DNA of 64,000 nt from Actinomycetes bacterium (GTDB lineage Bacteria > Planctomycetota > Phycisphaerae > JAACET01): positions 1 to 64,000 of the forward strand of contig JAUXAG010000004.1 in NCBI GenBank assembly GCA_030614915.1, read 5' to 3'. Numbering within the stretch: the first letter of the stretch is position 1; each line of letters opens with the position of its first letter. Of the stretch, positions 1,705-58,373 are shown piece by piece. The notes under the pieces are model-generated. The model did no database searches. It was not told where the DNA came from and was given only the letters and a program-made list of their open reading frames with translations. Made by a program: the position numbers and the translations under genes.

Positions 1705-1800
1705 AAACCCCCGGTAAAACCGGGGGCTAAATATACTGGATTCTGCATCAAGTGCCCAATGACAGAAAAGAAACCCCCAGATAAATCTGGGGGCTAAATA
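1705..1800 (+). repeat. composite: family-1 hairpin, degenerate family-2 palindrome, family-1 hairpin (stem variant CAGA/TCTG)
   Basis: aaacccccggtaaaaccgggggctaaata (1705-1733), tggattctgcatcaagtgcccaatgacag (1737-1765), aaacccccagataaatctgggggctaaata (1771-1800). Confidence 0.85.
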
Positions 1801-6574: not shown

Positions 6575-6657
6575 AAACCCCCGGTAACGCGTAGCGTCCT
6601 TCGGAAACCGGGGGCTAAATACTGAAGAGCTCCCCAGGATAAACCTGGGGGCTAAAC
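6575..6657 (+). repeat. two family-1 hairpins; first carries an 18-nt insertion in its loop (6588-6605)
   Basis: aaacccccggtaa[cgcgtagcgtccttcgga]aaccgggggctaaata ... tccccaggataaacctgggggctaaac. Confidence 0.88.
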
Positions 6658-11121: not shown

Positions 11122-11712
11122 ATGGCCGAGATCACGGCAGCAATGGTAAAGGCCCTGCGGGAAAAGACTAATCAGCCGATGATGGAATGCAAAAAGGCCC
11201 TGCTGGAATCCGCCGGCGACGAAGCCAAGGCAGTGGAGATCCTGCGGAAGAAGGGACTTCTGGGCCTAGCCAAACGAGCGGACCGGGCGACAAAAGAAGG
11301 GTTGGTGGGCAGCTATATTCATCACAATGCCAAGGTTGGGGCCATGGTGGAACTGAACTGCGAGACGGACTTTGTGGCCCGCAACGAGGCCTTCAGGCAG
11401 CTGGTTGCGGACCTGGCGGTGCACGTCTGCGCCACGGCTCCGATGGCGGGGAGCATCGAGGATCTGGACACAGAAATGCTGGACAAGGAACGGCAGATAC
11501 TGAGAGAACAGATAGAAAACAAGCCGCCGGAGATCGTGGAGAAAATAGTCGAAGGAAGAATGGGCAAGTTCTACGAGGAACACGTTCTGCTGGAGCAGGT
11601 TTTTGTCAAGGACGACAAGAAAAAGATCAAGGACCTGCTGAATGAGCTGTCGAGCAAGACGGGGGAGAAGATAACGCTGGGGCGTTTTGCTCGCTTTGCG
11701 GTAGGCGGATAA
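11122..11712 (+). CDS. tsf: translation elongation factor Ts
   Basis: AAMVKALREKTNQPMMECKKAL...YIHHNAKVGAMVELNCETDFVARNE. Confidence 0.97.
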   Translation: MAEITAAMVKALREKTNQPMMECKKALLESAGDEAKAVEILRKKGLLGLAKRADRATKEGLVGSYIHHNAKVGAMVELNCETDFVARNEAFRQLVADLAVHVCATAPMAGSIEDLDTEMLDKERQILREQIENKPPEIVEKIVEGRMGKFYEEHVLLEQVFVKDDKKKIKDLLNELSSKTGEKITLGRFARFAVGG

Positions 11713-11715
11713 GTA

Positions 11716-11828
11716 AAATCAAAATGCAAAAATCAAATATCAAAATTACAAATCAAAATTCAAAGAGTTTGAAAGATTCTGTCTCACTGTACCGGAGCAT
11801 TTTGACGTTTGCGTTTTGATTTTTGGTA
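11716..11828. repeat. AT-rich MITE-like repeat between tsf and pyrH; 18-nt-free (empty-site) copy
   Basis: AAATCAAAATGCAAAAATCAAATATCAAAATTACAAATCAAAATTC ... TTTTGACGTTTGCGTTTTGATTTTT: inverted termini. Confidence 0.75.
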
Positions 11829-13149: not shown

Positions 13150-14268
<1,119 letters not shown>

Positions 14269-26507: not shown

Positions 26508-26537
26508 GGAAAAATGGAAATGCAAAAATCAAAAAGA

Positions 26538-26564
26538 TGGATTCCCGCCTTCGCGGGAATGACA
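26538..26564 (+). repeat. palindromic repeat TGGATTCCCGC..GCGGGAATGACA at lipoprotein gene start
   Basis: TGGATTCCCGCCTTCGCGGGAATGACA; same family at 1737, 31934, 40427, 52710, 56355. Confidence 0.85.
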
Positions 26565-28700: not shown

Positions 28701-28890
28701 AAAAAATCAAATATCAAATATCAACGCGAAGCGTCCCTTGGAAATTACAGATCAAAAATCAAAAATGTTTAAGAGTCAATTTCTAGGCCCTGTCAGATGT
28801 CCGTTCTTTTTCTTTTTGTATTTCACTTTGTAATTTTACATTTCCAAAGGATGCTACGCATTGATTTTTTATTTTTGATTTTCTTCTAGA
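28701..28890. repeat. AT-rich MITE-like repeat with two inverted 18-nt micro-insertions
   Basis: cgcgaagcgtcccttgga (28725-28742) and tccaaaggatgctacgca (28843-28860) in KSKIKNQ-type AT-rich sequence. Confidence 0.75.
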
Positions 28891-30770: not shown

Positions 30771-30800
30771 ATCAATTTCTCATCAACACAAAGAAATACA

Positions 30801-30895
30801 GAACTCACCACGAAGGCACGAAGAACACGAAGGTAAAAAACAAAACCAAGAAATACAGAACTCACCACGAAGGCACAAAGAACACGAAGGTAAAA
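30801..30895 (+). repeat. dispersed repeat aactcaccacgaaggcacgaagaacacgaaggtaaaa, two copies
   Basis: Near-identical tandem copies between Fe-S genes. Confidence 0.75.
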
Positions 30896-30960
30896 ACAAA
30901 GAGATAAAACCGGATCCCCGCTTATTTATCGCGAGGCATGACAGCATCAATAAAAGTCGC

Positions 30961-35500: not shown

Positions 35501-36957
35501 ATGGAAAACTCGGAGCCGGGGATGGGGATGGGTCGGCGGCGGCCGCTGTCGTCGGGCGGGCCGAGCTCCATCTGGATGCATTCGAGAGCGGAGACCTTGC
35601 CGTCGGAGCCGATTATTTTGGTAGGGGCGGCTAAAAAACGAATGTTGATGCCTTCGTGGAGGGCTTCTTCGACCTCGTCGGCGATGGCGGGCATTTCTGT
35701 GCGGCTGCGGCGATAGACGATGGTGACGGCGTTAGCGCCCAAGCGATAGGCGGTGCGGGCGGAGTCGATGGCTGCGTTTCCGCCGCCGATGATGCAGACG
35801 TTTTTGCCGACGTCGCGGCGACCCTCGAGATTGACCTGGCGGAGGAAGTCCATGCAGTCGTTGACGCCTTGGAGGTCTTCGCCTTCGATGCGGAGCTTTC
35901 GTCCGAGATGGGCGCCGATTGCTAAGATCACAGCGTGGTAGCCCTGCTCGGAGAGTTGGTCTAAGGTAATGTCGCGGCCGAGGCGGGTGTTGGTTTTGAT
36001 TTTTACGCCGGCCTTTCTTACCCAATCGATTTCGGCGCGGACGGCATCACGAGGCAGACGGTATTCGGGGATGCCGGCAACCAAGAGGCCGCCCGGCTCA
36101 GCGAGGGCTTCAAAAACGGTAACGTCGTGGCCTTGAAGGGCCAACTCATAAGCGGCGGTGATGCCGGCGGGGCCGGAACCTATGACAGCGACTTTCTTGC
36201 TCGTGCGGCGTCGGCGTTTGGGGGGTTTGGGACGGTCCTTCTCGGACAGGTCGAGCTCTTTGTCGGCCAGGAAACGCTTGAGACGGCAGATGCCGACGGG
36301 TTGGTCGTACTTGGCGCGTTGGCAGGCCTGCTCGCAAGGATGATGGCAGACACGGCCAAGTACGCCGGGAAAGACGACGGCTTCGCGAATGAGGGCGAGG
36401 GCTTCGTCGAATTTGCCGGCTCGGGTGAGGGCCACGAAGCCGTGGGTATTGATTCCGCCTGGACAGCCAAGACGGCAGGGGGATTTCTGGGCCTTGTCGA
36501 TGACAAAAGCATTGGGGAAGGCCTGAGGATAAGGGCGGAAAACAGCTTTGCGGTCGGAGAGGCACTGCTCGAACTCGTGGGGATGCGAGACAGGGCAGGC
36601 CTGGGCACAGTCGCCGCAACCGGTGCACTTGGCTAAGTCGATGTAACGGGGGTGCTTGCGGATTGTGGCTTTGAAGGAGCCGGCTTGGCCGGTGAGGGAT
36701 TCGAGCTGGGCCCAGGTGATGGTCTCGATATTAAGGTGTCGGCCGCACTCGACGACCTTGGGCGACATGATGCACATGGCGCAGTCGTTGGTGGGGAAGG
36801 TTTTGTCCAACTGGGCCATGACTCCACCGATGGCAGGGGCGCGTTCGAGGAGATAGACCTTTATTCCGGAATCGGCTAAGTCCAGAGAAGCCTGGATGCC
36901 GGCGATTCCGCCGCCAATGACCAGAGCTGCTCCGACTTTGCTGTCTTTATCACTCAT
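32506..36957 (-). CDS. hdrA: giant HdrA-family protein (1483 aa) with embedded GltD-like NAD(P)H oxidoreductase module
   Basis: N-term GGGIAGIQASLDLADSGIKVYLLER...CTGCGDCAQACP; middle CRLGCPGGINTHGF...VAVIGSGPAGITAAYELALQGHDVTVFE; C-term HCGINIGG...ASCTPRTHEPLFQ...CVACGTCESICPYNAIEV, CKGCGACVAACRSGAL. Confidence 0.92.
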   Translation of the reverse strand: MSDKDSKVGAALVIGGGIAGIQASLDLADSGIKVYLLERAPAIGGVMAQLDKTFPTNDCAMCIMSPKVVECGRHLNIETITWAQLESLTGQAGSFKATIRKHPRYIDLAKCTGCGDCAQACPVSHPHEFEQCLSDRKAVFRPYPQAFPNAFVIDKAQKSPCRLGCPGGINTHGFVALTRAGKFDEALALIREAVVFPGVLGRVCHHPCEQACQRAKYDQPVGICRLKRFLADKELDLSEKDRPKPPKRRRRTSKKVAVIGSGPAGITAAYELALQGHDVTVFEALAEPGGLLVAGIPEYRLPRDAVRAEIDWVRKAGVKIKTNTRLGRDITLDQLSEQGYHAVILAIGAHLGRKLRIEGEDLQGVNDCMDFLRQVNLEGRRDVGKNVCIIGGGNAAIDSARTAYRLGANAVTIVYRRSRTEMPAIADEVEEALHEGINIRFLAAPTKIIGSDGKVSALECIQMELGPPDDSGRRRPIPIPGSEFSIETDMIISAIGQDSDMSFLAAADDIKVDKWGSPILDGSNGATSRPGLFVTGDAATGPASVIDAIGGAKIVAQTVDFYLRKGKLPRPKPPDTDQRPEIRTPDHVPYLPRQIEPQLSLDNRRSFDPVDLGLTEEMALAEAARCLDCGLCSECMACERACQAKAVNHADRAETVELDVGAVVVTNGLDEFAPATRPELGYSRLPNVVSSIEFERILSASGPYQGHVVRPSDKQTPKTVAFLQCVGSRDLNCRNDYCSSVCCMYAIKEAVIAKEHLGGKLEATIFFMDMRAQGKDFDKYYERARDEYGIKFVRSRVSDVSPADDDSGDVMITYQAEDASVHIERFDLAVLSVGLEPAPHQAQLAEKLGLRTNEFGFVWTDPLRPVESSRQGVFVGGVASGPKDIPETVMQASAAACATGELLADARGTLTATKQYPPEIDVTGQPPRIGVFVCHCGINIGGIVNVPSTVDYARTLPNVVFAGENLYTCSQDTQDKIKEIILENNINRVVVASCTPRTHEPLFQETIREAGLNRYLFTMANIRDQCSWVHMFEPEKATAKSQDLLRMAVAKARMLEPLIPVKLDVNHDALVIGAGLAGLTAARALAAQGYNTHLVERQSQLGGNLRRLRTTLEGKDVRALLAENVAAVTDNPLIHVHTDTEVKDIAGFVGNFTTTVLTANQESQIDHGVVVVATGADESRPTEYLYGRDERVITGLEMEQLLNDGLGSDVPPKTVAFIQCVGSREEPHRYCSRVCCAGALKHALKLKDRWPDISVYVLYRDLRAYGFKEKYYRQARQAGIVFVRYDLDRKPAVSVNGRLSVTLPDPVLARDLRITPDLLVLNSCIVPHPDGEELAQKLKVPRNEDGFFLEAHVKLRPVEFATAGVYLAGLAHSPKTMDETIAQAKAAVSRASVVLAMDHLEAEGVICRVNPDRCVACGTCESICPYNAIEVVRKTLGRIERDLAEVNPALCKGCGACVAACRSGALDLAGFTSSQVMAEVLAL

Positions 36958-36967
36958 AAAACACCCG

Positions 36968-37085
36968 ATTCACCACGAAGGCACGAAGAACACGAAGGTA
37001 AAAACAAAGAAGATAAAACCTCAACAAAAAAAACACGAAGAAAAGAAAGAACTCACCACGAAGGCACGAAAAACGCGAAGGTAAG
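36968..37085 (+). repeat. dispersed repeat caccacgaaggcacgaagaacacgaaggtaaaa, two copies
   Basis: Same family as 30801 and 44301. Confidence 0.75.
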
Positions 37086-37088
37086 ACA

Positions 37089-39299: not shown

Positions 39300-39455
39300 G
39301 AAATCAAAATGCAAAAATCAAATATCAACGCGAAGCGTCCCTTGGAAATTACAAATCAAAATTCAAAACGAACAGAAAAGACGAAAGACAAGAATTTTTT
39401 CATTTTTATGTGTCATTTTGCATTTTACGTTTTGATTTTTGATATTTCGATAGCA
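39300..39455. repeat. AT-rich MITE-like repeat carrying one 18-nt micro-insertion (39329-39346)
   Basis: Same left end as 11716 copy, interrupted by cgcgaagcgtcccttgga; right end TTTTGCATTTTACGTTTTGATTTTTGATATTT. Confidence 0.8.
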
Positions 39456-42482: not shown

Positions 42483-42510
42483 GACCCCCGGTAAAACCGG
42501 GGGCTAAATA
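42483..42510 (+). repeat. hairpin repeat GACCCCCGGTAAAACCGGGGGCTAAATA between split hdrA halves
   Basis: Supplies the TAG stop codon of the 42504-43781 CDS. Confidence 0.85.
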
Positions 42511-44300: not shown

Positions 44301-44400
44301 AGAATTCACCACGAAGGCACGAAGATCACGAAGTAAAAAAAGAAAAACAATCAGATGTAGATTACACAGATGAACACAGATTGTAAAGATTTTTAGACAC
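44301..44400 (+). repeat. dispersed repeat fragments (caccacgaaggcacgaagatcacgaag; acacagatgaacacagatt)
   Basis: Families shared with 17112, 30801, 36968, 56241 and 62660. Confidence 0.65.
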
Positions 44401-44530
44401 AGATAACCAAAAAAGGACATAATTGCATGCGAGCAGCAAGGGTTATAGAATATGAGCGCAGATCTTGGGAGGTTCCAGATAAGTGGTCTGAGGGAAAGAC
44501 CTGTAGGAAAGTGTATAGGAGTAATAGGCT

Positions 44531-56322: not shown

Positions 56323-56383
56323 AAACCCCCGGTAAAACCGGGGGCTAAATATACTGGATTCCGCATCAAGTGCAGAATGACAG
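56323..56383 (+). repeat. composite family-1 hairpin (AAACCCCCGGTAAAACCGGGGGCTAAATA) plus degenerate family-2 palindrome (TGGATTCCGCATCAAGTGCAGAATGACAG)
   Basis: Same composite arrangement as 1705-1765. Confidence 0.8.
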
Positions 56384-58310: not shown

Positions 58311-58373
58311 AAACCCCCAGGATAAACCTGGGGGCTAAACAAAGAAACCCCCGGTAAAACCGGGGGCTAAATA
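58311..58373 (+). repeat. two tandem family-1 hairpins with different stems (CAGG/CCTG and CGG/CCG)
   Basis: aaacccccaggataaacctgggggctaaac aaag aaacccccggtaaaaccgggggctaaata. Confidence 0.88.

Follow-up and report, generated by a model that had tools for sequence, protein, structure and literature searches.

The window, a 64,000-nt stretch from a 2.56-Mb genome that is 95.8% complete (G000), contains an 18-nt element, CGCGTAGCGTCCTTCGGA, at 6588..6605 on the forward strand. It lies exactly at the bar of a GC hairpin, CCCCCGGTAA|AACCGGGGG, whose left arm and half loop (CCCCCGGTAA) occupy 6578..6587 and whose remaining half loop and right arm (AACCGGGGG) occupy 6606..6614, both on the forward strand. 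Within the window this hairpin also occurs empty four times, always on the forward strand, at 1708..1726, 42485..42503, 56326..56344 and 58348..58366, and the placement of an 18-mer at the bar of the loop, as given in the first-pass annotation, is confirmed. Five further 18-mers had been noted from the sequence, and all are present, with AA on either side of each. Four are in AT-rich hosts: TGCGTAGCGTCCTCCGGA at 13162..13179 (reverse strand), CGCGAAGCGTCCCTTGGA at 28725..28742 and again at 39329..39346 (both forward), and TGCGTAGCATCCTTTGGA at 28843..28860 (reverse). The fifth, TGCGTAGTATCCTTCGGA, is at 13194..13211 on the reverse strand, 20 bp upstream of an open reading frame starting at 13231. 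An empty AT-rich host, with AATATCAA|AATTACAAATC unbroken, is seen at 11706..11756 on the forward strand. In total, the window gives six matches at up to 2 mismatches where 0.22 are expected, and none of 100 dinucleotide shuffles reaches six. An Rfam search of the window returned only a tRNA, and no known RNA family for the element. Other dispersed intergenic repeats are also present in the window, of the ACCACGAAGGCACGAAGAACACGAAGG, GGATTCCCGCTTTCGCGGGAATGACA and CACAGATTACACAGATGAACACAGATT types, at 30784-30896, 36949-37087, 26532-26564 and 44349-44412.

A genome-wide search was performed for the 18-mer, which proved to be enriched over control rather than present at chance level. The strict consensus has 15 exact matches in G000 compared to none for a reversed-pattern control, and at 2 mismatches there are 50 matches compared to 11. 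Two relatives were used for comparison, namely a sister species (G001), the contigs of which match those deposited as CSMAG_1421, and a third species of the same genus (G002), which is an outgroup whose long matches to G000 are approximately 70-75% identical, versus 86-92% for G001. We see 22 matches to YGCGNAGCRTCCNNNGGA in G001 and none in G002. Across the examined stretches of G000 and G001 there are 62 matches in total, a count that pools 18-, 36- and 56-nt forms and in which one match is probably due to chance.

The distribution beyond these genomes is narrow. Of 397 genomes in the class, only G000, G001 and G029 stand out, and no match to the element was found in viral contigs. Among 85,462 species representatives, a set that may omit G000 itself, the AA-flanked pattern is found in multiple copies only in G001 (CSMAG_1421). 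The remaining matches in that set are single and in contexts that do not correspond, with the exception of one contig end of CSMAG_2647, which matches G001. This contig end (L131, JAUWWB010000004.1; named Omnitrophota) is 99% identical to a CSMAG_1421 contig (L161/L070; named Actinomycetes) over 153 bp, including the element, and one or both of them appear to be wrongly binned or named. In G029, which belongs to another family of the class, there are 17 identical copies of TGCGCAGCATCCTGCGGA and one near-copy (L034, L049, L053, L056, L275-L293). This sequence fits the same formula of two mini-hairpins described below, is flanked mostly by GCC|GG and can also be folded as one 5-bp hairpin; it is possibly a related family.

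The flanking sequences of the 62 matches in G000 and G001 were next compared. A pyrimidine occupies position -3 in 61 of 62 matches, positions -2 and -1 are AA in 56 of 62, and position +1 is A in 61 of 62. The rule of AA on both sides, as proposed from the window, thus holds for the six copies there, but genome-wide the rule is YAA|A, where the bar marks the insertion point. Insertion is exact and without target duplication, and the element has a single orientation with respect to the target strand. A MITE or other derivative of a classical DNA transposon was considered and rejected, as no target-site duplication is seen (at 39329 or in hairpin loops) and the ends are not inverted copies of each other. 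The site preference extends over at least five different hosts, comprising two GC hairpins (GGTAA|AACC with its CCCCGGG variant, and a second hairpin, GGATAA|ACC), the AT-rich repeat, the GGCACAAAGGCAC repeat (GGCACAA|AGGCAC) and unique sequence. Within the AT-rich repeat, three different ATCAA|A positions are occupied. A separate repeat, CCTGATTCGGCGA-CACGAAGTGTCCTTCGGA-AACC, always carries the CAC/GTG variant of the element (L201:2783, L203:2129, L297:1993, L090:608) and could be an old host or a source of it. A different hairpin insert of approximately 37 nt, GGGCACCCCAATCGCG...CGCGATTGGGGACC, was also observed in different host repeats, including the loop of a GC hairpin (L197 at ~6960 and ~14870; L213 at ~2400).

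Copies of the element are concentrated outside coding sequence: in G000, 9 of 36 lie in open frames of at least 150 amino acids, versus 88% of random positions. The suggestion that a length of six codons makes insertion frame-neutral therefore finds no support, and since the copies avoid long open frames, frame neutrality looks irrelevant. The orientation of copies with respect to replication was also considered. The host GC hairpin (CCCCCGGTAAAACCGGGGG) lies on the G-rich strand at 21 of 24 loci, with one orientation per contig in G000 and G002, whereas among AT-hosted elements no preference for one strand is seen with respect to GC skew (10 of 17). This indicates that the strand bias is a property of the host and does not provide evidence on the mechanism of the element, and targeting of the lagging strand was rejected.

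Empty sites were found both within G000 and between species; a comparison of filled and empty orthologous sites between strains had been proposed as a check. The GC hairpin is filled at 5 and empty at 21 sites in G000, filled at 4 and empty at 8 in G001, and filled at 1 and empty at 30 in G002, where the single filled hairpin holds a diverged 18-mer, CGCCAAGGGCCCCTCGGA, at the same insertion point. At orthologous sites, the difference between species is the exact insertion or loss of 18 nt. The site at 39329-39346 is exactly empty in G002, inside a conserved AT-rich stretch, and the element at 13194-13211 is exactly missing in G002, while in G001 that site is absent. The element at C1:41375 is exactly missing in G001, and that at G001:C187:3961 is missing in G000, so pairs run in both directions between species; two sites, C24:1419 and C18:22742, are filled in both G000 and G001. 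These data support a discrete 18-nt micro-insertion, and the existence of empty sites shows that the 18-mer is not an invariant part of its host repeats. As G002 is the outgroup, its empty sites suggest gain in the G000/G001 lineage, although exact loss may account for individual sites.

These same comparisons bear on how the copies reached their present positions. Sub-variants of the element follow their hosts, with TTC in GC hairpins, TGC in AGGCAC contexts and TTT or TGT in AT-rich hosts, and many copies may thus have been carried along by the host repeat instead of arising through new insertions. The copies at 28725 and 39329 have a common 66-nt flank with 91% identity. Intergenic spacers also turn over in blocks between G001 and G000: in G001, one block (C161; L090:587-933) is approximately 346 nt long and contains several repeats, and it corresponds to approximately 10 nt in G000 (L300:14252-14262), so whole intergenic repeat blocks can be gained or lost between species. 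All of this is compatible with a few ancient insertions, after which filled host repeats would have spread by recombination or by their own mobility with the 18-mer as a passenger. We regard that as a rather unlikely account of the family as a whole, because a single site rule, YAA|A, applies in five or more unrelated hosts, because three different positions of the AT-rich repeat are occupied, and because differences at orthologous sites are of exactly 18 nt.

The 18-nt unit can be folded as two adjacent hairpins, each with a 3-bp stem and a 3-nt loop, of the form NNC-GNA-GNN followed by TCC-NNN-GGA. The first stem is maintained through paired changes (CGC/GCG, TGC/GCA and CAC/GTG), and its loop is nearly always GNA. 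Among units of the form AA-N9-TCCNNNGGA-A, in which the first half is left free, three Watson-Crick pairs can form in N9 in 23 of 28 cases in G000 and 21 of 24 in G001, although these copies are related and the pairing counts are not independent tests. In 21 distinct 18-mers, pair 1 of the first hairpin alternates between C-G and T-A, and pair 2 between G-C and A-T. Covariation analysis of these gave seven cells changed on both sides, versus 1.7 in shuffled data; none of 500 shuffles was as high, and slid controls gave zero. The stem of the second hairpin is essentially invariant (type I), so there is covariation support for only one of the two. The earlier proposal that each half is a mini-hairpin is supported for the first half by compensatory change in stem 1; no paired changes are seen in hairpin 2. 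The predicted DNA folding energy of the 18-mer, using standard DNA parameters, is no better than that of shuffled sequences. Standard folding parameters probably give no credit for the extra stability of d(GCGNAGC).

In the Y1 transposase pathway, DNA enters next to a short, fixed motif on the 5' side, the target is not duplicated, and short hairpins are used. The element resembles this pathway in its insertion next to such a motif, in the lack of duplication and in its short hairpins, and GTAG is present in about half of its copies. GTAG REPs and REPINs, associated with RAYT, are short intergenic hairpin repeats (PMC3116915, PMC3733652), and some REPs are on record within small palindromes (PMC3733652). 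A REP/REPIN-type element moved on single-stranded DNA by a Y1 (IS200/IS605-like, RAYT) transposase would fit these features, and a search of the genome for a Y1/HUH (REP-associated) transposase had been suggested from the window. Such a link is not supported by PF01797, which gives no hit in G000 (95.8% complete), only a fragment of 76 aa in G001, and two genes in G002, where the element has no match. The absence of Y1 from G000 and its presence in the element-free G002 disfavour a REP/RAYT origin. In addition, the stems are of 3 bp rather than the 5-13 bp of REPs (PMC3733652), and the GTAG tag is not conserved, with GAAG, GGAG and ATAG variants observed. Overall, we consider such an origin improbable.

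Larger forms of the element were also found, which the first-pass annotation had not noticed. A 36-nt form occurs at seven loci, where CCCGTAGGGACCTGTGGT, itself an 18-nt double mini-hairpin, is located at TCCTT|CGGA in the loop of hairpin 2. In the examined DNA of G000 and G001, CCCGTAGGGACCTGTGGT is seen only within type I. At one locus, G000:C35:150728, there is a 56-nt form, in which the second hairpin of the inner unit holds the 20-nt sequence TGCGTAGCATCACCACGTGA in its loop. The lengths decompose exactly: adding 18 nt to the 18-mer gives the 36-mer, and a further 20 nt gives the 56-mer. The element grows by nesting of mini-hairpins. Folding predictions for the 36- and 56-mers as isolated single strands are no better than those for shuffled sequences, and the predicted fold of the 56-mer differs from the nested one. 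As the 36-mer is found in several hosts, including a GC hairpin (G001:C161) and GGCACAA|AGGCAC (G000:C35), either it is mobile as a whole or it has arisen more than once. The location of nested insertions in hairpin loops, together with the very dynamic nature of the intergenic regions, might suggest that small quasi-palindromes arise in loops when replication switches template locally, with no mobile unit involved. Identical copies are however present in unlinked and unrelated hosts, and because the same 18 bases appear within unrelated flanks, the sequence cannot derive from local templates. Template-switching is thus largely refuted, and we give it very little credence.

Overall, we favour with moderate confidence a family of insertion elements that are ultra-short, non-coding and non-autonomous, with an 18-nt unit that enters exactly at YAA|A without target duplication. 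With approximately 60 intergenic copies in two related uncultured bacteria, the unit is among the smallest DNA sequences that appear to move. For this family of insertion elements, the inserted identity probably resides in the termini, NGCGNAGCNTCC at the 5' end and GGA at the 3' end, because the 36- and 56-nt forms, which hold extra DNA in hairpin 2, use the same kind of site. Mechanistically, the unit would fold as single-stranded DNA, and single-stranded parts of the target might then receive a copy of the folded unit, through either a putative enzyme acting in trans or the replication and repair functions of the host. A fuller version of this model can be offered only tentatively: an 18-nt structural mobile element, among the smallest known, would move as single-stranded DNA in folded form; an existing double mini-hairpin would receive newer ones in its loop; the unit, thus enlarged to 36 and then 56 nt, would itself be mobile at YAA|A; and a putative dedicated enzyme would recognise both ends.

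How elements too short for conventional transposon ends are spread is a question shared by SDRs, REPs without a transposase and mitochondrial hairpin elements. The 18-nt family offers a simple test case, with one unit, one site rule and filled and empty sites across three related species. Its graded sizes of 18, 36 and 56 nt show which parts of the element are needed, and its nesting shows that intergenic hairpin repeats in bacteria can build up in layers.

By analogy, the closest kinds would be the SDRs of cyanobacteria and the double-hairpin elements of mitochondria, with GC clusters as a further analogue. The double-hairpin elements of Allomyces mitochondria are longer and T-looped. They have two hairpins per unit, their insertions differ between close relatives, and no flanking duplication is reported (PMC2800124). 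The 18-nt element, which can fold as two hairpins per unit with covariation at two pairs of the first, likewise shows no target duplication, but it is bacterial. The GC clusters of yeast are short GC-rich hairpins in mitochondrial DNA that show presence or absence between strains, with units that merge and loops that change more than stems (GC42, PMC4478555). Unlike the 18-nt element, GC42 is 42 bp long and mitochondrial; a co-conversion tract is reported for it (PMC4478555). The SDRs of Nostoc-type cyanobacteria are described, in papers citing Elhai et al. 2008 (PMC4390886, PMC2884548, PMC3116915), as dispersed intergenic units of approximately 20 bp that are proposed to be mobile, with SDR5 inserted precisely between bases 3 and 4 of HIP1 (PMC4390886). 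Like these, the 18-nt element is a very short dispersed unit that is inserted exactly at a short target. As far as SDRs are portrayed in those citing papers, it differs in having its own sequence and lineage, a target of YAA|A rather than HIP1, a double mini-hairpin and nesting through 18, 36 and 56 nt.
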